Assembly (NCBI RefSeq): GCF_015767635.1 | Contig: NZ_CP065230.1 | Location: forward strand, 3,224,001-3,288,000 | DNA from: Halomonas sp. A40-4 | GTDB lineage: Bacteria > Pseudomonadota > Gammaproteobacteria > Pseudomonadales > Halomonadaceae | Direction of reading: 5' to 3' | Length of the DNA stretch: 64,000 nucleotides | In this document: piece after piece, positions 19,033 through 31,978 of the stretch | How positions within the stretch are numbered: position 1 is the first letter of the stretch | Layout of the letters: the number at the start of each line of letters is the position of its first letter | The notes under the pieces: model-generated | Seen by the model: only the letters and a program-made list of their open reading frames with translations | What the model was told of the DNA's origin: nothing | Database searches by the model: none | Program-made: the position numbers and the translations under genes

Positions 19033-19674
19033 CTATGAAACAGTATCTACCTCGTTACGCTGCAGACGAAGGTACAAGAGCGCGCTGGCTGTGGCGTCTT
19101 CCAGTGCCCGCTGAGGCGTCTTACTGGGCACTTGCCAGCAGTCAAGCGCACGCGCCAGCTCGGCCGCGTGTTCCGCCTGGGGATGTAGACGACGCAGATG
19201 GCGCTGATGCAGCTTGGTAACATCCACCCGGGCATTGGGCAGGCCAAACCCCAAATGATGGCGAAGCGCCTGCTCAAGCGGGGCGAGACGCTGGTCGAGT
19301 TGCCAGCCAATGATTGGCCGATTGCCGATAAACTCAACCAGCGAGCGCAGGCTTTCAATGTTCAACGGTTTGGTCGCCTCGACGCTATACAGCAGTTGAT
19401 GGCGCCGCTCGGCGGCATCACTTCCGCACGCGTCTTCAATGAGCGCTGCCACCCAGGCACGACTGGTCAGCACCTGATGCTGGCGCAGTGTGACCGCTGC
19501 TACGCTCATGACGCCATGGTGAGCAAAGCATGCCAATGCCACCAGCTCATTGCCCAGGTAGGGCTGGAAGAGCCATGCGTAGGGAGAAGCTGCATAACGG
19601 CGGCGCTCGCTTCCTCTGCGCAGCATGCCGCCAAGCCAAGCGAAAGGGGCGTCCAGATAGTGTCGGCTGATCAC
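19033..19674 (-). CDS. DnaQ-fold (exonuclease-like) protein lacking catalytic residues
   Basis: 213-aa protein. Its position after a cNMP/CBS/DUF294 gene and several fold landmarks match the 3'-5' exonuclease usually found there: RPIIGWQLDQRLAPLEQAL corresponds to the second exonuclease motif, and PQRALEDATASALLYLRL to the third. The first motif (usually D-x-E-T-T-G) reads ELVALACFAHHGV with both acids missing, and the histidine of the third motif is Q. It is probably not an active nuclease. It starts with GTG overlapping the upstream stop (GTGA), with TGGAG before it, so the pair is translationally coupled. Confidence 0.7.
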   Translation of the reverse strand: MISRHYLDAPFAWLGGMLRRGSERRRYAASPYAWLFQPYLGNELVALACFAHHGVMSVAAVTLRQHQVLTSRAWVAALIEDACGSDAAERRHQLLYSVEATKPLNIESLRSLVEFIGNRPIIGWQLDQRLAPLEQALRHHLGFGLPNARVDVTKLHQRHLRRLHPQAEHAAELARALDCWQVPSKTPQRALEDATASALLYLRLQRNEVDTVS

Positions 19675-21500
19675 GAATACTCCAAATGGTAACGATGCGA
19701 GAGACGCTGCTTGAAATCCTTGACGATATGCAGCGCTTCGCGCAGTAGATCGCGCTCCAACGACGATAATTCCTGCACCACGACGCGGTTGGATCGCTCC
19801 TGTTGGTCACCGGAGCCGTCGTTGGTAATGTCGTCCAGTTGCTGTTTGAGCCGCAACTCGCTAAACAGCGCCAGGGCTTCGCCAAGGTCATCGGCAAAAC
19901 GACGGTTGAGTCGCCCGTCCTCTGCCAGTGCATCCAGACGCTCAAATGTCGAGGTGGCATGAATACGCCGTTCAAGCGCCAGTGTGCGAACACCATGAAC
20001 AATGGGAAAAATGCCGCCTTTCTTGATATCGATACCGTGCTGGGGCTTCTTTAGCGAACCGAACAGCGTCAGCGGCGTGGAAAAGCGCAGCGCGGTGCGG
20101 GCGAAGTAAGACAGCAGCAACTCATCCCTCGAGCAGCGCTCGAACAGCTCTTCGCGCACGCTTTCCAGCAGGCTCGGATTGCCCGCCACGCCGTGGGAAT
20201 CAAGCATGATGGCAAGTTTCATCAGACTGTCGCCGTCCCGCGCGCTGGCCCAGCGTGCAATGCGCCCTTTCCATTCACTCACCGTGGCGACCCAGTCCGG
20301 GTTCGACACCATGATATTGCCCGGGCACGGCGGATACCCCAGCTCGATCAGGGTCGAGGTAAGCCGTTGCATGTCGTCGTGCACCGCGGTCCAGTCTGCA
20401 TCATCGGCCAGAATCAGCCCATTATCCTGATCGGTCTTGAGAATTTGCTCGCCGCGCCCCTCACTGCCCATGACCATCATGCAGCTGTCTTGGTGGTGCG
20501 CCGCATCAATCGTGAACTCCCAGGCCTTGCTCATGATGCGACCGTTCAGTGCCGCCAGCAGATCCATCGCAAAACGCAGCTTCACACCCTGGGCCATCAG
20601 CGCGCTGACCAATTCGGGCGTGCGGTGGCTGGCAGTTGCCAACTCGGTCAAGTCATGGGCCTGTTCAACCTGGAGACTGACCACATAACTGCGACTGGAG
20701 AAATAACTCAGCACATCGGTCAACTCGACGACGCCGACGACCTGTTTATCGTCCACCACCACGACACGCGTAACCTTGTGACGCGTCATGCTGACCAGCG
20801 CTTCAAACAAGTATTGATCGGACTTCACCGTCACCAGGGTATATTGGGCGATATCGGCAAGCGCCGTGGTCACCGGGCGCTGCGACAGCACAATGGCATT
20901 GAGCAGGTCGGTCTTGGTCACCATACCCGTCTGGCTGGAGGCATCGACCAGCAAACTGTCGGCATGGCTGTCGCTGAGCGTGCGCACGGCCTTGTCGATA
21001 TCCGCGTTGGCAGGCAGAAGAAGCGGTGCGCGCATGCATTCGCTGACGCGGGCCAGCATGAAGCCCGCCATTGTCACGCCGCCTTCGGCGCGCTTTTCGG
21101 TCAACAGGCGAGCTTTATGGGCCAGTGACTGGCGGAAGAACTGGCTAAACTCGGGGTACTTCTGACACAGCGTCTTGAATAACGCTTTGGGCATCAGGTA
21201 ACAAAGGCATTCCTGCTCCGCTTGAAAGCGGTAGCGGCTTTTACCGTTCAATATACTGATTGCGCCAAATAAGTCGCCTGCCGTGTAGTGCCCGATACGT
21301 GACATGGACGATGGCAAGGTAGGGTCCAGTTCAGCGACCTCCCCCCTGTGGATCAAATAGACGTACTCGCCAGTCTGGCCTGTCTCGACAATAATATCGT
21401 GGCGTTCAAAATAGGCGAGGTCCATGCCACGACGCACGTGATCCTTGCCCTCGTCATCCAGCAGTGAAAACGGGGGCTGGGAAAGGTCTACATCTACCAT
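19671..21500 (-). CDS. cNMP-binding/CBS/DUF294 nucleotidyltransferase-like signalling protein
   Basis: 609-aa cytoplasmic multidomain protein. A cyclic-nucleotide-binding barrel occupies about residues 10-125 (GEYVYLIHRGEVAEL, GDLFGAISILNGKSRYRF), a CBS pair about 150-275, and a DUF294 nucleotidyltransferase-like domain about 300-430 (MGSEGRGEQILKTDQDNGLIL, with the G-S and D-x-D pattern). A helical DUF294 C-terminal domain ends the protein. Such proteins are linked to nucleotide-sensing regulation, often paired with a DnaQ-like gene and near acetate transport/CrbS genes, as here. ATG at 21500 is chosen because GAGG is 8 bases upstream; ATG 21506 is possible. Confidence 0.88.
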   Translation of the reverse strand: MVDVDLSQPPFSLLDDEGKDHVRRGMDLAYFERHDIIVETGQTGEYVYLIHRGEVAELDPTLPSSMSRIGHYTAGDLFGAISILNGKSRYRFQAEQECLCYLMPKALFKTLCQKYPEFSQFFRQSLAHKARLLTEKRAEGGVTMAGFMLARVSECMRAPLLLPANADIDKAVRTLSDSHADSLLVDASSQTGMVTKTDLLNAIVLSQRPVTTALADIAQYTLVTVKSDQYLFEALVSMTRHKVTRVVVVDDKQVVGVVELTDVLSYFSSRSYVVSLQVEQAHDLTELATASHRTPELVSALMAQGVKLRFAMDLLAALNGRIMSKAWEFTIDAAHHQDSCMMVMGSEGRGEQILKTDQDNGLILADDADWTAVHDDMQRLTSTLIELGYPPCPGNIMVSNPDWVATVSEWKGRIARWASARDGDSLMKLAIMLDSHGVAGNPSLLESVREELFERCSRDELLLSYFARTALRFSTPLTLFGSLKKPQHGIDIKKGGIFPIVHGVRTLALERRIHATSTFERLDALAEDGRLNRRFADDLGEALALFSELRLKQQLDDITNDGSGDQQERSNRVVVQELSSLERDLLREALHIVKDFKQRLSHRYHLEYS

Positions 21501-22093
21501 GGGCATGACCTCATTAGAATAATGCGGAGTCAGATAACCTGACGGTCTCAACTACATCTCACAACCACTCTTCTCAACCAGTCTCTCAACTACTACTTTG
21601 GGTTATTGCGCTAATGTCTAATGCGCTTTATTTACGTTGTCGGCATGTCACTGACAAAACAAATCGTCCCTTTTAGACTTATTAAAAAAGAGGGCTTTCC
21701 ATCTTCTGAACATAGCAAACATCGCCCTATACTCCCCACCTAGACCATCGTCCCATGCAGCTAATAAAACTTTGCACGATAGCGTCAAAAACCCACAAAA
21801 AGGCTCATTTTCAACTGATTGGATACCTTTTGTTCACCACCAAAGTTTATTGATACCAAAGTCTGGGATTTAATTTTTGCATTTATTGCCCAGTATTGTC
21901 AGTGAGTCATGCAGGGTAATCGCACGTCGTTGCACCACTCAAAGTCCTTCTTAGCCAAGTGACGTGTTAACGAACAGCTGATTCATGACATCACAAAAAG
22001 CGAGTGGATCTAAAACGTGCGATTGACCTGGTGGGTCAACCGCTATTCCGAGTGAACTTTCCAACCTAAAAAACACTAGTGGAGAGCAACACA
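21501..22093. other. 593-base intergenic region, divergent regulatory region of the acetate symporter
   Basis: No gene is seen. The region separates the divergent CBS gene and symporter operon and is AT-richer than its surroundings. It contains a direct repeat ACCAAAGT at 21839-21846 and 21855-21862 (16 bases apart), an inverted repeat at 22023-22039, and the ribosome site GGAGAG near 22082-22087. Its size and the neighbouring CrbSR genes suggest complex control of acetate uptake. Confidence 0.6.
22023..22039. promoter_or_regulatory. Inverted repeat upstream of the symporter operon
   Basis: TTGACC-TGGTG-GGTCAA has perfect 6-bp arms and a 5-base centre. It ends 54 bases before the small-subunit start. 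It could be an operator. It could also be partly a -35 region (TTGACC), although no good -10 box was found at 17 bases. Confidence 0.35.
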
Positions 22094-22354
22094 ATGGCAG
22101 ACGACAAATCCAATGCTGCTGAATACTGGAAAGCCAACGTCCGTACCATTATTGGATGCTTGGCTGTCTGGGCATTCGTCTCATACGGCTGCGCTATTCT
22201 CTTTCGCCCGCTACTGGCCTCAATCCCTGTCGGTGGGACCGACCTGGGCTTCTGGTTTGCTCAGCAAGGGTCAATTCTCACCTTCATCGCCTTGATCTTT
22301 TTCTATGCCTGGAAAATGAACAAGCTCGACGAAAAATTTGGCCTAGGGGAGTAA
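22094..22354 (+). CDS. Sodium/solute symporter small subunit (DUF4212)
   Basis: 86-aa membrane protein with two hydrophobic helices and the DUF4212 pattern (YWKANVRTIIGCLAVWAFVS, then LGFWFAQQGSILTFIALIFF). This family is always encoded next to a large sodium/solute symporter subunit, as here, six bases before it. The small subunit is required for or stabilises the carrier in related systems (family knowledge). ATG at 22094 with GGAGAG 7 bases upstream is preferred to a GTG at 22079. Confidence 0.9.
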   Translation: MADDKSNAAEYWKANVRTIIGCLAVWAFVSYGCAILFRPLLASIPVGGTDLGFWFAQQGSILTFIALIFFYAWKMNKLDEKFGLGE

Positions 22355-22360
22355 GCCGGT

Positions 22361-24157
22361 ATGAGCCAATTTGCAATCAACCTGCTCTTCGTAGGTGCCT
22401 CCTTTGCCTTGTATATAGGCATTGCGATCTGGGCACGTGCGGGATCGACAAAAGACTTCTATGTCGCTGGCGGCGGCGTCCACCCGATCACCAACGGGAT
22501 GGCAACCGCCGCGGACTGGATGTCAGCGGCATCTTTCATTTCAATGGCGGGTCTTCTGGCCTCTGGTGGCTACGCCAACTCTACCTTCCTGATGGGCTGG
22601 ACTGGCGGCTACGTCATTCTCGCCATGCTGCTTGCGCCCTACCTGCGTAAGTTCGGCAAGTTTACCGTTCCCGACTTTATCGGTGACCGCTTCTACAGCA
22701 ACACGGCCCGTCTGGTAGCGGTTATCTGTTTGATCGTGGCTTCGGTGACTTACGTTATCGGTCAGATGACCGGTGCGGGTGTGGCGTTCTCTCGCTTCCT
22801 CGAAGTGCCCAACACCGCCGGCATCTGGATTGCGGCAGCGATCGTATTCCTGTACGCCGTTTTCGGTGGCATGAAGGGCATCACCTATACCCAGGTCGCG
22901 CAGTATGTCGTCCTGATCATTGCCTATACCATCCCGGCGGTATTCATTGCCATGCAGCTGACAGGCAACCCCATCCCGATGTTTGGCATGTTCAGCACGC
23001 ATACTGAATCGGGTCTTCCGCTGCTGGAGAAACTCGATGACGTAGTGAACGCGCTGGGTTTCCGGGACTACACGGCTGACGTCGACAACAAGCTCAACAT
23101 GGTGCTGTTTACCCTGTCGCTGATGGTCGGTACCGCGGGCCTGCCCCACGTCATCATTCGCTTCTTCACCGTACCGAAGGTCGCTGACGCACGCTGGTCA
23201 GCCGGCTGGGCGTTGGTGTTCATCGCGCTACTTTACCTCACCGCACCGGCGGTTGGTTCCATGGCGCGCTTAAACCTCGCCACGACGATCTACCCGGAAA
23301 TGGCAGGGCAAGTAGAAGACTATGACGCCGCTGCGGAACAGGCACTTGTCTACGAGGATCGCCCTGGCTGGATCCGCACCTGGGAAGAAACCGGCCTCAT
23401 CAACTTTGACGACAAGAACAATGATGGTCGCATTCAGGTCTACAACGACAGCAATGAAGAATATGCCGAAATTGCTGAGTCACGTGGCTGGGAAGGGAGC
23501 GAGCTGACCGTCAATAACGATATTCTTGTACTCGCTAACCCCGAAATTGCCAACCTACCCGGCTGGGTCATTGGCTTGATTGCAGCAGGCGGTATCGCCG
23601 CGGCGCTGTCGACGGCAGCCGGTCTTCTGCTTGCGATCTCGTCGGCCATCAGCCACGATTTGATCAAGACCATGATCAATCCCAAAATCACCGAGAAAGG
23701 TGAAATGTTGGCCGCCCGTATTTCCATGGCGGGTGCCATCCTGGTAGCAACGTACCTTGGCCTTAACCCACCCGGGTTTGCCGCGCAAACAGTGGCTCTG
23801 GCCTTCGGTATCGCGGGTGCCTCGCTGTTCCCCGCGTTGATGATGGGTATCTTCTCCAAGAAGATGAACAACTCAGGCGCCGTTGCCGGTATGCTGGCTG
23901 GTCTGGGCTGCACCCTGCTGTACATCTTCACCTACCTGGGCTGGCTGTTCATCCCCGACACCAACATGCTGGCCAACACCCAGGAAAACTGGCTGTTCGG
24001 CATTTCGCCGCTGTCCTTCGGTGCGGTCGGCGCAATGATCAACTTCGCCGTGGCCTTCCTGGTCTGCAAGGTGACCAACGAGCCTCCGCAGGAGATTCAG
24101 GACCTGGTCGAAAGCGTTCGCTACCCGAAAGGCGCTGGCGTTGCCGTTGACCATTAA
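22361..24157 (+). CDS. Sodium/solute symporter large subunit, probable acetate carrier
   Basis: 598-aa SSS-family carrier of the type paired with DUF4212 proteins. ATAADWMSAASFISMAGLL near residue 48 and the GGMKGITYTQVAQYVV helix are typical of ActP-like symporters. Residues about 310-385 form a hydrophilic insertion between helices that contains an EF-hand-like loop (DKNNDGRIQVYN, 23411-23446). The operon ends in a strong terminator. Acetate is the inferred substrate because crbS, crbR and acs lie downstream; other short carboxylates are possible. Confidence 0.88.
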   Translation: MSQFAINLLFVGASFALYIGIAIWARAGSTKDFYVAGGGVHPITNGMATAADWMSAASFISMAGLLASGGYANSTFLMGWTGGYVILAMLLAPYLRKFGKFTVPDFIGDRFYSNTARLVAVICLIVASVTYVIGQMTGAGVAFSRFLEVPNTAGIWIAAAIVFLYAVFGGMKGITYTQVAQYVVLIIAYTIPAVFIAMQLTGNPIPMFGMFSTHTESGLPLLEKLDDVVNALGFRDYTADVDNKLNMVLFTLSLMVGTAGLPHVIIRFFTVPKVADARWSAGWALVFIALLYLTAPAVGSMARLNLATTIYPEMAGQVEDYDAAAEQALVYEDRPGWIRTWEETGLINFDDKNNDGRIQVYNDSNEEYAEIAESRGWEGSELTVNNDILVLANPEIANLPGWVIGLIAAGGIAAALSTAAGLLLAISSAISHDLIKTMINPKITEKGEMLAARISMAGAILVATYLGLNPPGFAAQTVALAFGIAGASLFPALMMGIFSKKMNNSGAVAGMLAGLGCTLLYIFTYLGWLFIPDTNMLANTQENWLFGISPLSFGAVGAMINFAVAFLVCKVTNEPPQEIQDLVESVRYPKGAGVAVDH

Positions 24158-24212
24158 GTCATAATCATCCCTTACCTGCCGACCCAAGGGTCGCAGGCTG
24201 TGGAATCGACCC

Positions 24213-24250
24213 GCCATCGGGCTTCCTCCGGGAGGCCCGATGGCTTTTTA
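24213..24250 (+). terminator. Rho-independent terminator of the symporter operon
   Basis: GCCATCGGGC (24213-24222) pairs perfectly with GCCCGATGGC (24235-24244), the loop itself can pair (CCTCC/GGAGG), and TTTTTA follows. Confidence 0.9.
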
Positions 24251-24262
24251 GAAGGACGTATT

Positions 24263-24778
24263 ATGATTTGGCATCTGATTGCCGCCATATTTGCAGGCTT
24301 GGCAGCGGCAGGGGTTGGCTTATTACTGCGCACGCTCAGCGGTAAGCGATTACCCAAATGGATTGTGCCCGTTTGCGGGGGGCTGGGTATGATCAGCTAC
24401 CAGATCCATATGGAATATTCGTGGTTTGAGCATAAGCAGCAGCAGCTTCCCGACACCGCTGAGGTGATTTCCAGCGATACAAGTCAACAGGTCTGGCGGC
24501 CGTGGACGTTCATCTTTCCAGTGACGACCAAATTCAGCGTCGTCGACAGCGAGAACATTCAACTGGGTACCAGCGACGATGCGCGAGTGGCACAATTTAT
24601 TCTTTATCAGTTCGAACGCCACTACACCGATGTGATTACCCACCATCCGTATGTACTCAATTGCGATAGCCGTGAACTGATTCCTCTCGAACCGGAAACC
24701 CGGGAGCCGCAAATCGATCGGATGCGTACGCTGCGCGATACTTCCCCGCTACTGAACAATGTATGCGATAACGCATAG
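24263..24778 (+). CDS. Hypothetical membrane protein
   Basis: 171-aa protein not recognised as a named family. The ATG at 24263 is preceded by GAAGGA. Residues 1-25 and about 33-50 are hydrophobic, giving one or two membrane helices. The remaining 120 residues are soluble and predicted to lie on one side of the membrane. They include VWRPWTFIFPVTTKFSVVD and the VCDNA end. The gene sits alone between the symporter terminator and crbS, so it may be a separate unit or lead into crbS. No function is proposed. Confidence 0.7.
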   Translation: MIWHLIAAIFAGLAAAGVGLLLRTLSGKRLPKWIVPVCGGLGMISYQIHMEYSWFEHKQQQLPDTAEVISSDTSQQVWRPWTFIFPVTTKFSVVDSENIQLGTSDDARVAQFILYQFERHYTDVITHHPYVLNCDSRELIPLEPETREPQIDRMRTLRDTSPLLNNVCDNA

Positions 24779-24884: not shown

Positions 24885-27800
24885 ATGTTTCATGGCGGAC
24901 TGTTAGTCGCGGTATCACTTGTGTATATCGCGGTGCTATTCGCTATTGCCTGGTACGGCGACCGCCGCGCTCGCATGGTCGGATCAAGCCGCCGTCGCCC
25001 CATTATCTACAGCCTGGCACTGGCGATTTACTGCACCTCCTGGACCTTCTATGGGGCCGTGGGCCAGGCAGCGACCGCCGGATGGTCGTTTGCCAGTATT
25101 TTCGTGGGGCCCGTACTGACCTTTTTACTGTTCTGGCCCGTGCTTGCGAAAATGATTCGCGTGGCCAAGCATCAGAACGTCACCTCCATCGCCGATTTTA
25201 TTGCCTCGCGCTACGGTAAAACGCAATCGCTGGCGGCGTTCGCCAGCCTTGTCGCCCTGGTCGGCACACTGCCCTACATAGCGCTGCAATTAAAGGCCGT
25301 CTCGACGACCTTCAGCGTGCTGACCGCCGAAGGCGACATGACCAACACGCCGCTGTTTGGCGATACCGCTTTTTATGTCGCCGTGGTGATGGCAATTTTT
25401 GCCATTCTGTTCGGGACGCGACATACCGACGCCACCGAGCACCACGAAGGCCTGATCCACGCTGTCGCCTTCGAGTCAATGGTTAAACTGCTCGCCTTCG
25501 TGGTACTTGGCGTGTTTGTCACCTGGGGCATGTTCGACGGATTGGGCGAGTTGATGGGCTACGCGGAGACCCAGCTGGAACTTCAACGCCAACTGGCCAA
25601 TCAGGATTTCGGTCAAAGCTTCTGGGCTCAGACACTGCTGGCGATGCTGGCAATACTCTGCCTACCCCGTCAGTTTCACGTTGCGGTGGTTGAAAACACC
25701 CATTCCGATGATGCGACAAAAGCACGCTGGCTGTTTCCGCTTTACCTAATCGTGATCGCGTTTTTTGTCGTACCGCTGGCGGCCGCTGGCTTGATGATGT
25801 TTTCCGGCTCATCGGTTGAGCCCGACACCTATGTGCTGGCGTTGTCCATGGCCTCCGGCCATGAGTGGCTCACCCTGCTGACGTTCATCGGTGGCTTTTC
25901 TGCCGCCACGGGTATGGTCATCGTTGCGGCCGTCGCCGTGTCGATCATGATCTCCAACGAGATCGTGATTCCGGCACTGTTCCGGTTGCGCTGGTTCGAC
26001 ACCAAGGCCCGCGATTATGGTCGGCTGGTGCTGCGTGCCCGGCGGCTGACCATCGTCGCCGTCTTGGCGATGGCTTACGGCTTCTACCAGATGATCGCCG
26101 AGTTCACATCGTTGGCGTCGATTGGCATGCTGTCCTTTGCGGCGGCAGCCCAGTTTGCCCCTGCGCTGATCGGCGGCCTGTACTGGAAGCGCGGTAACCG
26201 GCTGGGCGTCATCGTGGGCATGAATGCCGGCTTTGCCATTTGGGTCTACAGCCTGCTCATGCCCGCCATGATCAGTGCTGATGTGCTGCCGGCCGACTGG
26301 CTTGACGGTGGGCCCCTGGGGCTTGCATGGCTGTCGCCTACGGCGCTGTTTGGCCTGAACCTGGGCGACAGCTTCACCCATGGGGTGATGCTTTCCCTGG
26401 GGGTTAACCTGTTCAGCTATATCTTCATTTCCCAGGTCACGTCCCAGCGCGTGGTCGAGCGTATTCAGGCGTCGCTATTCGTCGATAGTGTTGAAACCCG
26501 CCAAACCTCGATTAACCGCCCCTGGACCGGGGCGACCACGGTGGGCGACTTGAAGGTGCTCTGTGAACGTTTCCTGGGTGCTGACCAAGTGGACCGCGCT
26601 TTTGAAGACTACGCGCGACGCACGGGGAAACCGCTGGATGACAGTACTCGAGCCTCTATCGATGTTATCCAGTTCACGGAGCGCTTCCTGGCCTCAGTGC
26701 TTGGGGCGTCTTCAGCGCGGATCGTGGTCAACTCCGCGCTGCAAGGCCGCGGCATCGGTATTTCCGACGTCATCTCGATTGTCGATGAAGCCTCCCAGGT
26801 GCTCGAATTCAACCGCGCGCTGTTGCAGGCCACCATCGAGAACATCAACCAGGGCATCAGCGTTGTCGACCAGAACCTGCGGCTGGTGGTATGGAATCAG
26901 CGCTACCTCGAGCTGTTTCGTTTCCCTGATCACCTCATCCGTGTAGGTGCGCCGATGGACCGCATCTTCCGCTATAACGCCCACAACGGCGAATACGGTC
27001 CCGGCGACCCTGAGGAACACGTCCAGCTGCTGCTCGACAACATCCGCGACGGTCAGCCCCACCGCTACGTCCGCTACCGCCAGGATGGCAGTGTGCTCGA
27101 AGTCCAGGGCAACCCGATGCCCGGCGGCGGTTTCGTCTATACCTATCAGGATATCACCCAGCAGAAACGCATCGAGGAAGCGCTGATCCGATCCGAGAAC
27201 AATATCCGGATTTACACCGATAACGTTCCTGCCCTGATCGCCTATTTCGATAAAGAAGGACGTTACCTGTTCACCAACCGTGCTTATGAACAGGCCTTTG
27301 GTATTGATCGTAATGCCGTGATCGGCAAACGCTACGAAGACGTGCTGCCCACACGCCAGGCCCAGGAAAGAGCCCCCTGGGTGGCCCTTACCCTGGGCGG
27401 TGAACGAGTCAGCTTTGAAGTCGCCATGCAGATGAGCGACTCCATGCGCCACATGCTGGTGACCTATACCCCGCACTTCGGTGACAGCCAGTCCATCCTG
27501 GGCTTTTTCGCCCTTTACCAGGACATTACCGAACGCCGTCAGGCGGAAATCGCGCTCAAGGAAACCAACGAAACCCTGGAAGAGCGTGTCCGCGAACGCA
27601 CCCAGGCGCTTTCCGAGGCCAATGCGGCGCTGCGACAGGAAAACCGCGTACGTGCCGAAGCCGAGCAGGCGCTACGCCAGGCAAAGCAGCTGGCCGAGGA
27701 TGCCAACGCCTCGAAGACACGCTTCCTGGCCGCGGCCAGTCACGATCTGCTCCAGCCGCTGAATGCCGCGCGCCTGTTCACCTCGGCGCTGATGCAAAAC

Positions 27801-28826
27801 GTCAGCGTGCCGGATACCCAGCGCACCATTGGCCATATCGATAATTCACTTCAAGCGGCGGAAGAACTCCTCAGCACACTCCTGGATATCTCCAAGCTTG
27901 ACGCCGGGGCTCTGACACCGCGCCGCAGTCACTTTGCGCTGGCCGACATTTTTCGACCGTTGCGCGCCGAGTTTGAAGTGATGGCCGATGAGCGAGGGCT
28001 GGACCTGGTCGTGGTACCTACCCAGCAATGGGTCGACTCGGATCCGCAGATGCTGCGACGTATTGTGCAAAACTTCCTGTCCAACGCGATTCGCTATACC
28101 CAGGAAGGCCGTGTCTTGCTCGGCTGTCGCCGTCAGGGCGAGCGACTGGTGATTGAAGTCTGGGACAGCGGTCCAGGCATTCCCGACTCGAAGCTGAGCG
28201 AGATTTTTCAGGAGTTTCGTCGCCTGGACCAGGTGTCACGGCACAAAGAAAGTGAAAAAGGCCTTGGGCTTGGGCTTTCCATCGCCGATCGCATGAGTCG
28301 TGTGCTCGATCATCCGATCAAGGTCCGCTCATGGGAAGACACCGGCACTGCCTTCTCGGTCAGCGTTCCGCGCGTTGAAGCCAGCGAAACCCGCGTTGTC
28401 GACCAGGATCAGGGACCGCGTCGCACGGGTAACAAACTGGCGGGTACCCGCATCGTATGTATCGACAACGAAACGCTGATTCTCGAGGGCATGACCGCCA
28501 TGCTCAGCGGCTGGGGGTGCGAGGTGTTCACCGCCACCAGTATCGGTGGCGCCAAATCGATCCTGCGCAACATGGACGGCGACCCGGATGCCATCCTGGC
28601 CGACTACCATCTGGACAACGAGGTCACCGGCCTGATGGCCCTGGAAGCCCTCAGCGAGCGCCTGACCAGCGCCGTCCCCGGCATCGTGATTACCGCTGAC
28701 CGCACCGAAGCCGTGGCCGAGGAAGTCAAGCGCGCCGGGTATCAGTTGCTGCTCAAGCCCGTTAAACCGGCAGCCCTGCGTGCACTACTGACCCGCACAC
28801 TTCAGGCCAGCCGGGCCAAACCGTGA
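24885..28826 (+). CDS. crbS: CrbS/MxtR-type hybrid sensor kinase with SSF transporter domain
   Basis: 1313-aa membrane sensor. Residues 1-about 500 are an SLC5-like SSF domain with about 13 helices. A STAC-like linker follows (about 505-620), then two PAS domains (about 625-770 and 775-885), a coiled coil (about 885-945), a HisKA domain with phospho-acceptor H953 (ASHDLLQPLNAARLF), an HATPase domain (NFLSNAIRYT, DSGPGIPD, KGLGLGLS) and a receiver domain with D1240. This is the CrbS architecture (MxtR in Pseudomonas), which with CrbR activates acs. Linkage to crbR and acs here supports the name. The ATG follows GGGAGA. Confidence 0.9.
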   Translation: MFHGGLLVAVSLVYIAVLFAIAWYGDRRARMVGSSRRRPIIYSLALAIYCTSWTFYGAVGQAATAGWSFASIFVGPVLTFLLFWPVLAKMIRVAKHQNVTSIADFIASRYGKTQSLAAFASLVALVGTLPYIALQLKAVSTTFSVLTAEGDMTNTPLFGDTAFYVAVVMAIFAILFGTRHTDATEHHEGLIHAVAFESMVKLLAFVVLGVFVTWGMFDGLGELMGYAETQLELQRQLANQDFGQSFWAQTLLAMLAILCLPRQFHVAVVENTHSDDATKARWLFPLYLIVIAFFVVPLAAAGLMMFSGSSVEPDTYVLALSMASGHEWLTLLTFIGGFSAATGMVIVAAVAVSIMISNEIVIPALFRLRWFDTKARDYGRLVLRARRLTIVAVLAMAYGFYQMIAEFTSLASIGMLSFAAAAQFAPALIGGLYWKRGNRLGVIVGMNAGFAIWVYSLLMPAMISADVLPADWLDGGPLGLAWLSPTALFGLNLGDSFTHGVMLSLGVNLFSYIFISQVTSQRVVERIQASLFVDSVETRQTSINRPWTGATTVGDLKVLCERFLGADQVDRAFEDYARRTGKPLDDSTRASIDVIQFTERFLASVLGASSARIVVNSALQGRGIGISDVISIVDEASQVLEFNRALLQATIENINQGISVVDQNLRLVVWNQRYLELFRFPDHLIRVGAPMDRIFRYNAHNGEYGPGDPEEHVQLLLDNIRDGQPHRYVRYRQDGSVLEVQGNPMPGGGFVYTYQDITQQKRIEEALIRSENNIRIYTDNVPALIAYFDKEGRYLFTNRAYEQAFGIDRNAVIGKRYEDVLPTRQAQERAPWVALTLGGERVSFEVAMQMSDSMRHMLVTYTPHFGDSQSILGFFALYQDITERRQAEIALKETNETLEERVRERTQALSEANAALRQENRVRAEAEQALRQAKQLAEDANASKTRFLAAASHDLLQPLNAARLFTSALMQNVSVPDTQRTIGHIDNSLQAAEELLSTLLDISKLDAGALTPRRSHFALADIFRPLRAEFEVMADERGLDLVVVPTQQWVDSDPQMLRRIVQNFLSNAIRYTQEGRVLLGCRRQGERLVIEVWDSGPGIPDSKLSEIFQEFRRLDQVSRHKESEKGLGLGLSIADRMSRVLDHPIKVRSWEDTGTAFSVSVPRVEASETRVVDQDQGPRRTGNKLAGTRIVCIDNETLILEGMTAMLSGWGCEVFTATSIGGAKSILRNMDGDPDAILADYHLDNEVTGLMALEALSERLTSAVPGIVITADRTEAVAEEVKRAGYQLLLKPVKPAALRALLTRTLQASRAKP

Positions 28827-28921: not shown

Positions 28922-29584
28922 TTATGACTCGACCTTGGGCGGCTCGACTTCCAGCTTCTGCGCTGCAATCACGGCTTGCGTGCGCGAGTGTACGCCCAGC
29001 TTGCGCAGAATAGCTGTCACATGCGCCTTGATAGTCGCCTCTGACACATTGAGCTCGTAGGCGATCTGCTTGTTCAGCAACCCTTCGGTGAGCATGTTGA
29101 GTACCCGGAACTGCTGCGGGGTCAGCGAGGCAATCGCTTCGGCAAAGCGCGATTCTTCTTCGCTGGTTTCTTCCAGAACGCCAGCCAATGCCTCGGGTAG
29201 CCACACCTCGCCCTGCAAAATCTCGCTGACTGCTTCAGCGATCAACTGCAGCGACGAGGACTTGGGAATAAAGCCTGATGCGCCATAATCGATGGCACGG
29301 CGCACGACGTAGGGCTCGTCGCTGCCGGAGACCACGGCCACCGGGATATCAGGCATTTGCCCACGTAGTTGGATAAGCCCCGAAAAACCGTGGGCGCCCG
29401 GCATGTGCAAATCCAGCAGAATGAGGTCAGCATCCGGGTGTCGGTTGACCACCTCCGTTGTCGCCTCCATGGTATCGGCTTCCACGATTTCTGCCTGCGG
29501 GGCCAGTTGGCGCAACGCCTGGGTGAGTGCTGCACGAAACAGCGGATGGTCGTCTGCGACGATAAACTTGTGGGCTACTGCCAT
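28922..29584 (-). CDS. crbR: CrbR/ErdR-type LuxR-family response regulator
   Basis: 220-aa response regulator with an N-terminal receiver (acidic pair D11-D12, phospho-acceptor D58 in LILLDLHMPG, Lys in GFIPKSS) and a C-terminal LuxR-type helix-turn-helix (TPQQFRVLNMLTEGLLNKQI, then VSEATIKAHVTAILRKLGV). It matches CrbR of Vibrio and ErdR of Pseudomonas, which switch on acetyl-CoA synthetase when acetate is used. It is convergent with its kinase gene and lies 263 bases downstream of acs on the same strand. Start signal GGAGG is 7 bases upstream. Confidence 0.9.
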   Translation of the reverse strand: MAVAHKFIVADDHPLFRAALTQALRQLAPQAEIVEADTMEATTEVVNRHPDADLILLDLHMPGAHGFSGLIQLRGQMPDIPVAVVSGSDEPYVVRRAIDYGASGFIPKSSSLQLIAEAVSEILQGEVWLPEALAGVLEETSEEESRFAEAIASLTPQQFRVLNMLTEGLLNKQIAYELNVSEATIKAHVTAILRKLGVHSRTQAVIAAQKLEVEPPKVES

Positions 29585-29847: not shown

Positions 29848-31797
29848 CTATTGATTTGCGCGATGTTCGATCAATTCATCCACTACCGAAGGATCGGCCA
29901 GCGTACTGGTATCCCCCAAACCGTCGCATTCATTGGCGGCAATCTTGCGCAGGATACGGCGCATGATCTTGCCCGAGCGGGTTTTGGGGAGGCCCGGCGC
30001 CCACTGGATGACGTCCGGTGAGGCAATGGGGCCGATATCCTTGCGCACCCACTGGGTCAGCTCTTTTTTAAGCTCCTCTGTCGGGTCAATCTCATCGTTC
30101 AGGGTCACGTAAATATAGATACCCTGACCCTTGATATCATGAGGGAAGCCGACCACCGCAGCTTCGGCAACGGCGGAATGAGCTACCAGCGACGATTCGA
30201 TCTCGGCAGTCCCCATGCGGTGGCCCGAAACGTTAAGGACGTCGTCAACCCGGCCGGTGATCCAGTAATAGCCGTCTTCATCACGACGACAGCCGTCACC
30301 GGTAAAGTACATGTTGTCGTAGGTGGAGAAATAGGTCTGCACGAAGCGATCATGGTCGCCCCAGATTGACCGCGCCTGACCGGGCCAGGCATCCAGGATG
30401 ACCAGATTGCCTTCGGTGGCGCCTTCGAGCAGGTTGCCCTCGTTATCCACCAGCGCGGGCTGTACGCCAAAGAACGGCTTGGTCGCCGACCCCGGCTTGA
30501 GCGGCGTCGCACCGGGAAGTGGCGAGATCATGATACCGCCGGTTTCGGTTTGCCACCAGGTGTCCACAATCGGGCATTTTTCGTTACCGATGACCCGGTA
30601 GAACCATTCCCAGGCTTCAGGATTGATGGGCTCACCCACCGAACCGAGCAGGCGCAGCGAATCGCGTTTGCTTGAGTCCATGACATTGTCGCCGTGGGCC
30701 ATCAAGGCACGCACCGCGGTCGGTGCGGTGTACAGAATATTGACGTTATGCTTGTCGACGATGTCGCCCATACGTCCATGGGTCGGGTAGCTGGGCACGC
30801 CTTCAAACATCAGCGTGGTGGCGCCGTTGGCCAGCGGGCCATAGACGATATAGCTGTGCCCGGTAACCCAGCCCACATCGGCGGTGCACCAATAGACTTC
30901 GCCGTCCTGATAGTCGAACACGTACTGGTGGGTCATCGCCGCAAAGGTCAGGTACCCGCCGGTGGTGTGCTTGAGCCCTTTGGGTGCGCCGGTGGAACCC
31001 GAGGTATAAAGAATGAACAGCGGGTCTTCCGCGCCCATCGCTTCGGGCTTGCATTCGGTTGACTGCTTGTCGACCAGGTCGCTAAACCACAGGTCGCGAC
31101 CTTCTTTCCATTCAATCTCGCCGCCGGTGCGCTTGACCACCAGCACGTTCTGGCAGACGTCGGTGCCTTCCCGGGTCAGGGCGGCGTCGACGTTGTCTTT
31201 CAGCGGTACCTGCTTGCCACCGCGCACCGACTCATCGGCGGTAATCACCAGCTTGGAATCAGCCCCGATAACCCGCTGGGCCACGGCGTCGGGCGAGAAG
31301 CCGCCAAAGACGACCGAATGCACCGCACCGATACGCGCACAGGCCAGCATTGCCATGGCGGCTTCGGGAATCATCGGCATATACAGGGTGACCGTGTCGC
31401 CTTTACCGACCCCCAATTCCTTCAGGCCGTTGGCCAGCTGATTGGTGCGTTCGTAAAGCTCACGATAGCTGATTTGCTTGGAATCATTGGGATCGTCGCC
31501 TTCCCAGATGATCGCGGTCTGATCACCACGTTTTTCTAGGTGTCTGTCCAGGCAGTTGGCGGCAACGTTGAGCTGGCCATCTTCAAACCAGCGAATATCG
31601 ACATTGTCACGCGCGAAGGAAGTGCTCTTGATCTTGGTCGGCGCCTTGATCCAGTCAAGCCGCTTGGCCTGCTCAGCCCAAAAGCCTTCCGGATCGTCTA
31701 CCGACTGCTGGTACATAGCCTGGTAGGTGGCTTCGTCAGCCCACGCGTTGGCGGCGATATCCTCGCGCACCGGATAGACGTTCTGCTGTTCGCTCAT
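29848..31797 (-). CDS. acs: Acetyl-CoA synthetase
   Basis: 649-aa AMP-forming enzyme that turns acetate, ATP and CoA into acetyl-CoA. The adenylation motifs are present: [15 protein letters not shown] near residue 265, [10 protein letters not shown] near 415, and the C-terminal [11 protein letters not shown] whose lysine is the regulatory acetylation site in known Acs proteins. The length equals that of E. coli Acs (652). Start has GAGGCAATTTC before ATG. Near crbS and crbR, it is the expected main target of that system. Confidence 0.97.
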
Positions 31798-31978
31798 GAA
31801 ATTGCCTCTGTCCGTGGAAATGCACTCTCTGAAGGAATGTAGCCGATATTATTTTTTACGTTACCGGCACCACATAATGTCACCCTAGCATAAACCTCTC
31901 GGCCCGGCCTTCCCTTTAGACATTGGTATTAACGTTTTTAGCATTAATTACAATAACTTATAGCAAACAATCAGGACG

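Follow-up and report, generated by a model that had tools for sequence, protein, structure and literature searches.

A DnaQ-fold protein that has repeatedly lost its exonuclease site in Halomonadaceae is probably kept as a subunit of a GlnE-like nucleotidyltransferase

What holds an exonuclease-like protein in a genome once the residues that should do the cutting are gone? The question is raised by a gene in the window analysed here, a stretch of 64,000 nucleotides from Halomonas sp. A40-4, whose 213-aa product had been read from the sequence alone as a DnaQ-like protein without catalytic acids, coupled to an upstream cNMP/CBS/DUF294 protein (hereafter, DUF294; Table 1). The GTG start of the gene (19674-19672) shares four bases with the TGA stop of the DUF294 reading frame, confirming the overlap noted in that first reading.

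The alignment with relatives placed the DEDDh positions of the 213-aa protein at A48, F50, R129, Q188 and D193, with four of the five catalytic residues gone. Motif I reads V-A-L-A48-C-F50 where the relatives have L-D-C-E, and motif II reads GWQLDQR129 instead of GWCIDFD. Both changes named by the sequence-only reading, the lost D-x-E of motif I (VALAC) and the replacement of the motif III His by Gln, are seen in the alignment, which revealed the loss of the motif II Asp as well and left D193, in RALEDA, as the only acidic residue at the four acid positions. A Pfam search returned no family match for the protein, even at E = 1. The NCBIfam model NF006601 (PRK09145, 3'-5' exonuclease) matched nearly its full length (E 9e-31), with a score of 106.9 bits that lies below the curated cut-off of 189 bits; the cut-off of PF00929 was likewise not reached. 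An AlphaFold2 model, with 104 relatives included in the input, had a mean pLDDT of 88.9 and a pTM of 0.84 and showed the RNase H-like DnaQ/RNase T fold over the full length, as the remaining fold landmarks had suggested; via structure comparison it resembled E. coli Pol III epsilon (2gui; Z 16.9, rmsd 3.3, 155 residues). Structure matches that were weak or absent were left out of the evidence. The protein thus has the fold of a DEDDh exonuclease and, with one of five residues kept, lacks the four acidic ligands and the motif III His that such an enzyme has.

Table 1 Features of the locus and their positions in the window.
Feature	Position	Strand	Details and basis
DnaQ-fold pseudo-exonuclease	19033..19674	-	213 aa, GTG start; ORF list, NF006601 match, alignment, model
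D193 codon, sole catalytic residue kept	19096..19098	-	alignment
Q188 codon, place of motif III His	19111..19113	-	alignment
R129 codon, place of motif II catalytic Asp	19288..19290	-	alignment
F50 codon, place of catalytic Glu, motif I	19525..19527	-	alignment
A48 codon, place of first catalytic Asp, motif I	19531..19533	-	alignment
cNMP-binding/CBS/DUF294/DUF294_C protein	19671..21506	-	611 aa from ATG 21506 (likely real start), 626 aa from TTG 21551
F613 codon of DUF294 (F598 from ATG)	19713..19715	-	alignment, tree
Nucleotidyltransferase motif G362-S363...D374-Q-D376 (GSEGRGEQILKTDQD)	20424..20468	-	catalytic residues invariant, 228/228 relatives
ACTU-like CrbR site core (CTAGACCATCGTCCCAT), divergent promoter region	21744..21752	+	motif instances from the available text of PMC5715377
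Second ACTU-like core (TGATACCAAAGTCTGGG)	21855..21863	+	motif instances from the available text of PMC5715377
DUF4212 protein, small symporter partner	22079..22354	+	family match
VC_2705-family sodium/solute symporter	22361..24157	+	NCBIfam match
CrbS-like hybrid kinase: PAS, HisKA, HATPase, receiver	24885..28826	+	Pfam
CrbR-like LuxR-type response regulator	28922..29584	-	by eye
Acetyl-CoA synthetase (acs)	29848..31797	-	by eye; ACTU-like core upstream at 31919

The partner of this protein has kept its own active site. The C-terminal half of the DUF294 structure model (pLDDT 84.7) resembled GlnE adenylyltransferase, with Z scores of 24.8 (3k7d, 303 residues) and 23.1 (1v4a), and the DUF294/DUF294_C half shares with E. 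coli GlnE both the fold and the GS...D-x-D motif of a nucleotidyltransferase. GlnE itself has two transferase domains and is not known to have cNMP/CBS domains or a DnaQ partner, whereas DUF294, a putative protein adenylyltransferase, carries cNMP/CBS domains and has a DnaQ partner. The Gly, the Ser and both Asp of the motif were unchanged in 228 of 228 relatives, whether the partner was living, dead or absent (11 genomes without the DnaQ-like gene are included). The coupling of the two genes first read from the window extends across the family, as the DnaQ-like gene adjoins DUF294 in every Halomonadaceae locus with enough flanking sequence. To see whether the two proteins are ever fused, which would have proved contact, the listed DUF294_C matches of 398 genomes in the phylum (at least 145 with a match) were inspected; the sole frame longer than 800 aa among them (1101 aa) was an overlapping-frame artefact with no DnaQ domain seen, and was rejected. 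The third-last DUF294 codon (window 19672-19685) was GAG in 67 of the 68 aligned sequences of the genus that have a codon at this place while other sites vary, and may be part of the ribosome-binding site of the overlapping gene.

The genes for the DUF4212 protein and the symporter run divergently from DUF294, with the kinase, the LuxR-type regulator and acs beyond them, a layout that we take, with names given by neighbourhood, to be the CrbS/CrbR acetate system. The kinase is presumably CrbS, again by its neighbourhood, and, judged by eye, its N-terminal half looks like a symporter. The ACTU site was described for CrbR in P. fluorescens, in the text available of PMC5715377, and ACTU-like cores were found in 123 of the 132 divergent regions of relatives, compared with 43 expected from base shuffles; the core is short, with 21 occurrences in the whole window, and single sites are weak. 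The acetate/CrbS neighbourhood proposed from the sequence was therefore recovered, with kinase, regulator, acs and ACTU-like sites nearby, and the core counts support, short of proof, a place for the DnaQ-like/DUF294 pair in the CrbS/CrbR regulon. No family model matched the 192-aa protein between the symporter and the kinase (24200-24778) above its curated cut-off. A DUF294 gene from a different lineage in the phylum (genome G694, locus L370) lies near a gene reading like a symporter-type kinase, so the link of DUF294 with CrbS-like kinases may be wider.

In the window's genus, Vreelandella, the DnaQ-like gene was present in 72 of 82 genomes, and none of the 72 orthologs had all five catalytic residues. 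As the loss is shared by the genus, it is neither chance nor a sequencing slip in the window. One genome (G160) kept the first and last Asp, and the five positions showed 33 different combinations among the 72 genomes. A second large genus (g20) was mixed: 25 of 68 copies were intact and 43 were changed in many ways, including replacement of H by N (14 genomes), of D by I, G, N, K or H, and of E by V; a further two g20 genomes had more diverged dead copies (25/70 intact with these included). In the remaining Halomonadaceae genera 74 of 79 were intact, three were changed and two were cut off, so that the loss is not general to the family, being total in Vreelandella, mixed in g20 and rare elsewhere. 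Outside the family, 67 DEDHD and one DEEHD were found, with acidic ligands and His in 68 of 68 proteins read out of 92 listed matches; the other 24 were all weak and paralog-like by score.

The losses were counted on a tree of the partner DUF294, built with FastTree (228 tips, without L098, L100 and L112), in which the trait itself was not used. Because H to N changes may leave activity, losses of a metal ligand, defined as a change to a non-acidic residue, were counted separately. A total of 14 independent metal-ligand losses were placed on the tree, 12 with nodes below 80 collapsed and 8 with nodes below 95 collapsed; any change at the five positions gave 21, 19 and 11 events, respectively.

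The genome of the window encodes a second DUF294-DnaQ pair (own copy L006, 3073023-3074208 region of G000:C1). Its DnaQ-like gene was present in 82 of 82 Vreelandella genomes, and all 30 copies examined read D, E, E, H, D. Given that the second pair keeps its acidic site, the loss is specific to the acetate-linked pair.

Could the gene simply be decaying, having become useless in Halomonadaceae, with its catalytic sites the first to drift and the gene itself on its way out? The graded losses in g20 would fit this, as would the 11 genomes that have DUF294 and no DnaQ-like gene. Among disjoint close pairs of g20, the median dN/dS was 0.186 for copies without a metal ligand (12 pairs) and 0.109 for intact copies (9 pairs), and the somewhat faster evolution of the dead copies fits partial relaxation. 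The dead copies of Vreelandella, however, had a median of 0.103 (23 disjoint close pairs) compared with 0.108 for intact copies (30 pairs), and no disjoint pair in any group reached 0.5. The window gene itself showed a dN/dS of 0.06-0.10 with its seven nearest relatives and 0.24 with the eighth, at 59% identity. Our conclusions on dN/dS rest on the disjoint close pairs; all-pair values (intact median 0.317) were set aside as misleadingly high, which we put down to saturation in GC-rich genomes. These estimates and the column counts were made without the broken or cut loci L098, L100, L112 and L113 and the cut L229 and L230, and the comparison of column conservation without only L100, L112, L113, L229 and L230. 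Frames were open and full-length across Vreelandella; the one copy with a broken frame comes from a 74%-complete genome, and its neighbouring genes are broken as well. Conservation had shifted rather than faded in this genus: the active-site columns were lost, and the N-terminal block, GNRP, LPN and the C-terminal helix were kept or became tighter. E43, R119, P120 and N147, none of them catalytic, were invariant in 104 living and dead sequences. Judged by these comparisons of codons and columns, the DnaQ-like gene of the window's genus is under selection, with no decay there, and we regard slow decay as rather unlikely. A kept fold, lost catalytic residues and purifying selection together describe a pseudoenzyme.

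The partner offers a second line of evidence on what is being selected. The 11 Halomonadaceae genomes that keep DUF294 without the DnaQ-like gene represent four events on the full tree (three with weak nodes collapsed), and ttcA follows shortly after DUF294 in all ten with enough flank; in the remaining one (L239) the contig ends. As the gene is gone while DUF294 is kept, the subunit is dispensable in some species. All 215 genomes with the DnaQ-like gene had Phe at position 613 of DUF294, in its last helix, and 9 of the 11 without the gene had Leu there; the partner-less genomes G241 and G243 retain Phe. Phe was also found in those orthologs read outside Halomonadaceae that reach this position, while paralogous DUF294 proteins have Ala, Ser or Leu. 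F613 changed three times on the tree, each time on a branch without a DnaQ-like partner. Two of the three F613L lineages lie close together, parted by three genomes with the gene and Phe, and could possibly reflect one change and one reversal; the third is in another genus. When four partner-keeping clades were drawn at random, none of 2000 draws had a column shared by three and 12 had one shared by two, a comparison that is imperfectly matched since the stems of the partner-less lineages are longer (11 of 228 tips account for 7.4% of tree length). Changes of partner-less DUF294 proteins fell in the C-terminal domain in 21 of 38 cases, with no clear difference from controls (15 of 31). A cause at the nucleotide level, such as coupling or a ribosome-binding element, was ruled out, as both TTC and TTT are used and adjacent synonymous sites vary freely, so that the constraint acts on the protein. 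Against a link with the subunit, three genomes from a different family keep F613 in a DUF294 copy that has no DnaQ gene next to it, although a DnaQ gene is present elsewhere in the genome. The simplest reading of these patterns would be a contact between F613 and the DnaQ-like subunit, whether that subunit is living or dead.

We consider it probable, from the computed fold, site loss, recurrence, purifying selection, unbroken adjacency, intact partner site and F613 covariation, that the pseudo-exonuclease is kept as a non-catalytic subunit of the GlnE-like nucleotidyltransferase DUF294, with its binding and function deduced indirectly. A DEDDh fold of the PRK09145/NF006601 type would have lost metal binding, should no longer cut nucleic acid, and would be retained by selection as a subunit of DUF294 in the CrbS/CrbR acetate regulon, where DUF294, equipped with cNMP and CBS sensor domains, would act as a GlnE-like nucleotidyltransferase. 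Contact would be made between the last helix of DUF294_C and surfaces of the DnaQ fold that are invariant in living and dead copies, for which E43, R119-P120, N147 and the N-terminal DRRR..F-x-P block are candidates, and the bound subunit may stabilise, target or regulate the nucleotidyltransferase. The ancestral subunit would then have both cut and bound, cutting having become repeatedly dispensable in Halomonadaceae. In the sequence-only reading the protein was a binding partner rather than a nuclease: the loss of catalysis holds, while purifying selection, strict adjacency and F613 speak for binding indirectly. Its further suggestion that the protein senses nucleotides found no support, as the cNMP and CBS domains are in the partner and the replacement residues differ between species.

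The main points against a strictly joint function are the gene deletions with DUF294 kept and a phenotype in P. putida. Members of PRK09145/NF006601 outside Halomonadaceae share with the window gene the family model, the place downstream of a cNMP/CBS/DUF294 gene and the acetate regulon, and differ from it in keeping the DEDDh site (68 of 68 read, compared with one of five residues in the window protein). The studied homolog is PP_0353 of P. putida, matched by description alone. The available text of PMC9927547 describes PP_0354/PP_0353 as an operon under MxtR/ErdR (CrbS/CrbR) in which growth on pyruvate is delayed by deleting pp_0353 but not by deleting pp_0354, a difference that speaks against a strictly joint function in P. 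putida. For PP_0353 its authors suggest mRNA degradation, as a speculation that leaves other mechanisms possible (PMC9927547, same text).

An alternative to the subunit reading is that the pseudonuclease, like Ssd1, still binds nucleic acid, RNA or DNA, and regulates acetate genes in that way. Its fold is common to nucleic-acid-bound RNase T and TREX structures, and repeated inactivation has a precedent in the fungal Ssd1/Dis3L2 pseudonucleases, in which the active site was lost at least four times with the protein kept, according to the available text of PMC8097288. The likeness to the window protein has limits, since Ssd1/Dis3L2 are eukaryotic RNA-binding proteins of the RNase II fold, whereas the window protein has a bacterial DEDDh fold, is tied to a nucleotidyltransferase and belongs to a series of about 8-14 losses. 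The residues of the active-site groove lost their conservation in Vreelandella while other regions kept theirs, and no nucleic-acid-binding motif was seen in the DnaQ-like protein; we judge this alternative unlikely. A toxin-antitoxin-like pair, with the nucleotidyltransferase silencing the nuclease by modification, as MntA reportedly does with HepT, is very unlikely. The genes do overlap, and a nucleotidyltransferase adjoins a nuclease fold in the two-gene arrangement of MntA-HepT; however, the protein has a DnaQ fold and no Pfam match at E = 1 that would indicate the HEPN RNase of a type VII (HEPN/MNT) system, none of the 72 Vreelandella copies has an intact site, and 11 genomes lack the gene. 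The transferase motif is nevertheless invariant (228/228), and a transferase whose sole job was silencing should have decayed. That the active site switched to another chemistry, as is said to have been proposed for Maelstrom, is hardly credible given the 33 combinations in Vreelandella and the lack of a new invariant polar set in the column conservation.

If a cutting site has been discarded repeatedly from a protein that is mostly kept, the main conserved job of that protein is probably not cutting. The DUF294/DnaQ pair would then serve as a natural experiment in which cutting and binding can be told apart, with close relatives that carry the subunit in living or dead form or lack it altogether, and with a single residue as a target for mutation; it would also be a bacterial counterpart of the repeated pseudonuclease evolution known from fungi. 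No earlier report of a recurrent pseudo-exonuclease beside DUF294 was found in open-access literature listings. A wider and more doubtful conjecture, which we offer tentatively, is that acetate/pyruvate metabolism might be tuned by a widespread GlnE-like protein adenylyltransferase, with DnaQ-fold proteins as its regulatory subunits. Nuclease-type chemistry would be a separable second activity, possibly removing the nucleotide added by the partner (both are phosphodiester bonds), discarded about ten times in Halomonadaceae with binding mostly kept and the contact marked by F613.

Unusual arrangements of the two genes were also observed elsewhere. Genomes G301, G336 and G257 (L371-L373 and L375-L377), from another family, have two DUF294 copies: the transferase motif is intact in the copy that has no DnaQ gene beside it, and the copy adjoining an intact DnaQ gene reads GPLDY in place of TDQDN, so that its transferase looks dead. 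In genome G446, the DUF294 gene (L374) is broken by a TAG codon, and the family DnaQ gene (L278) lies elsewhere in the genome.
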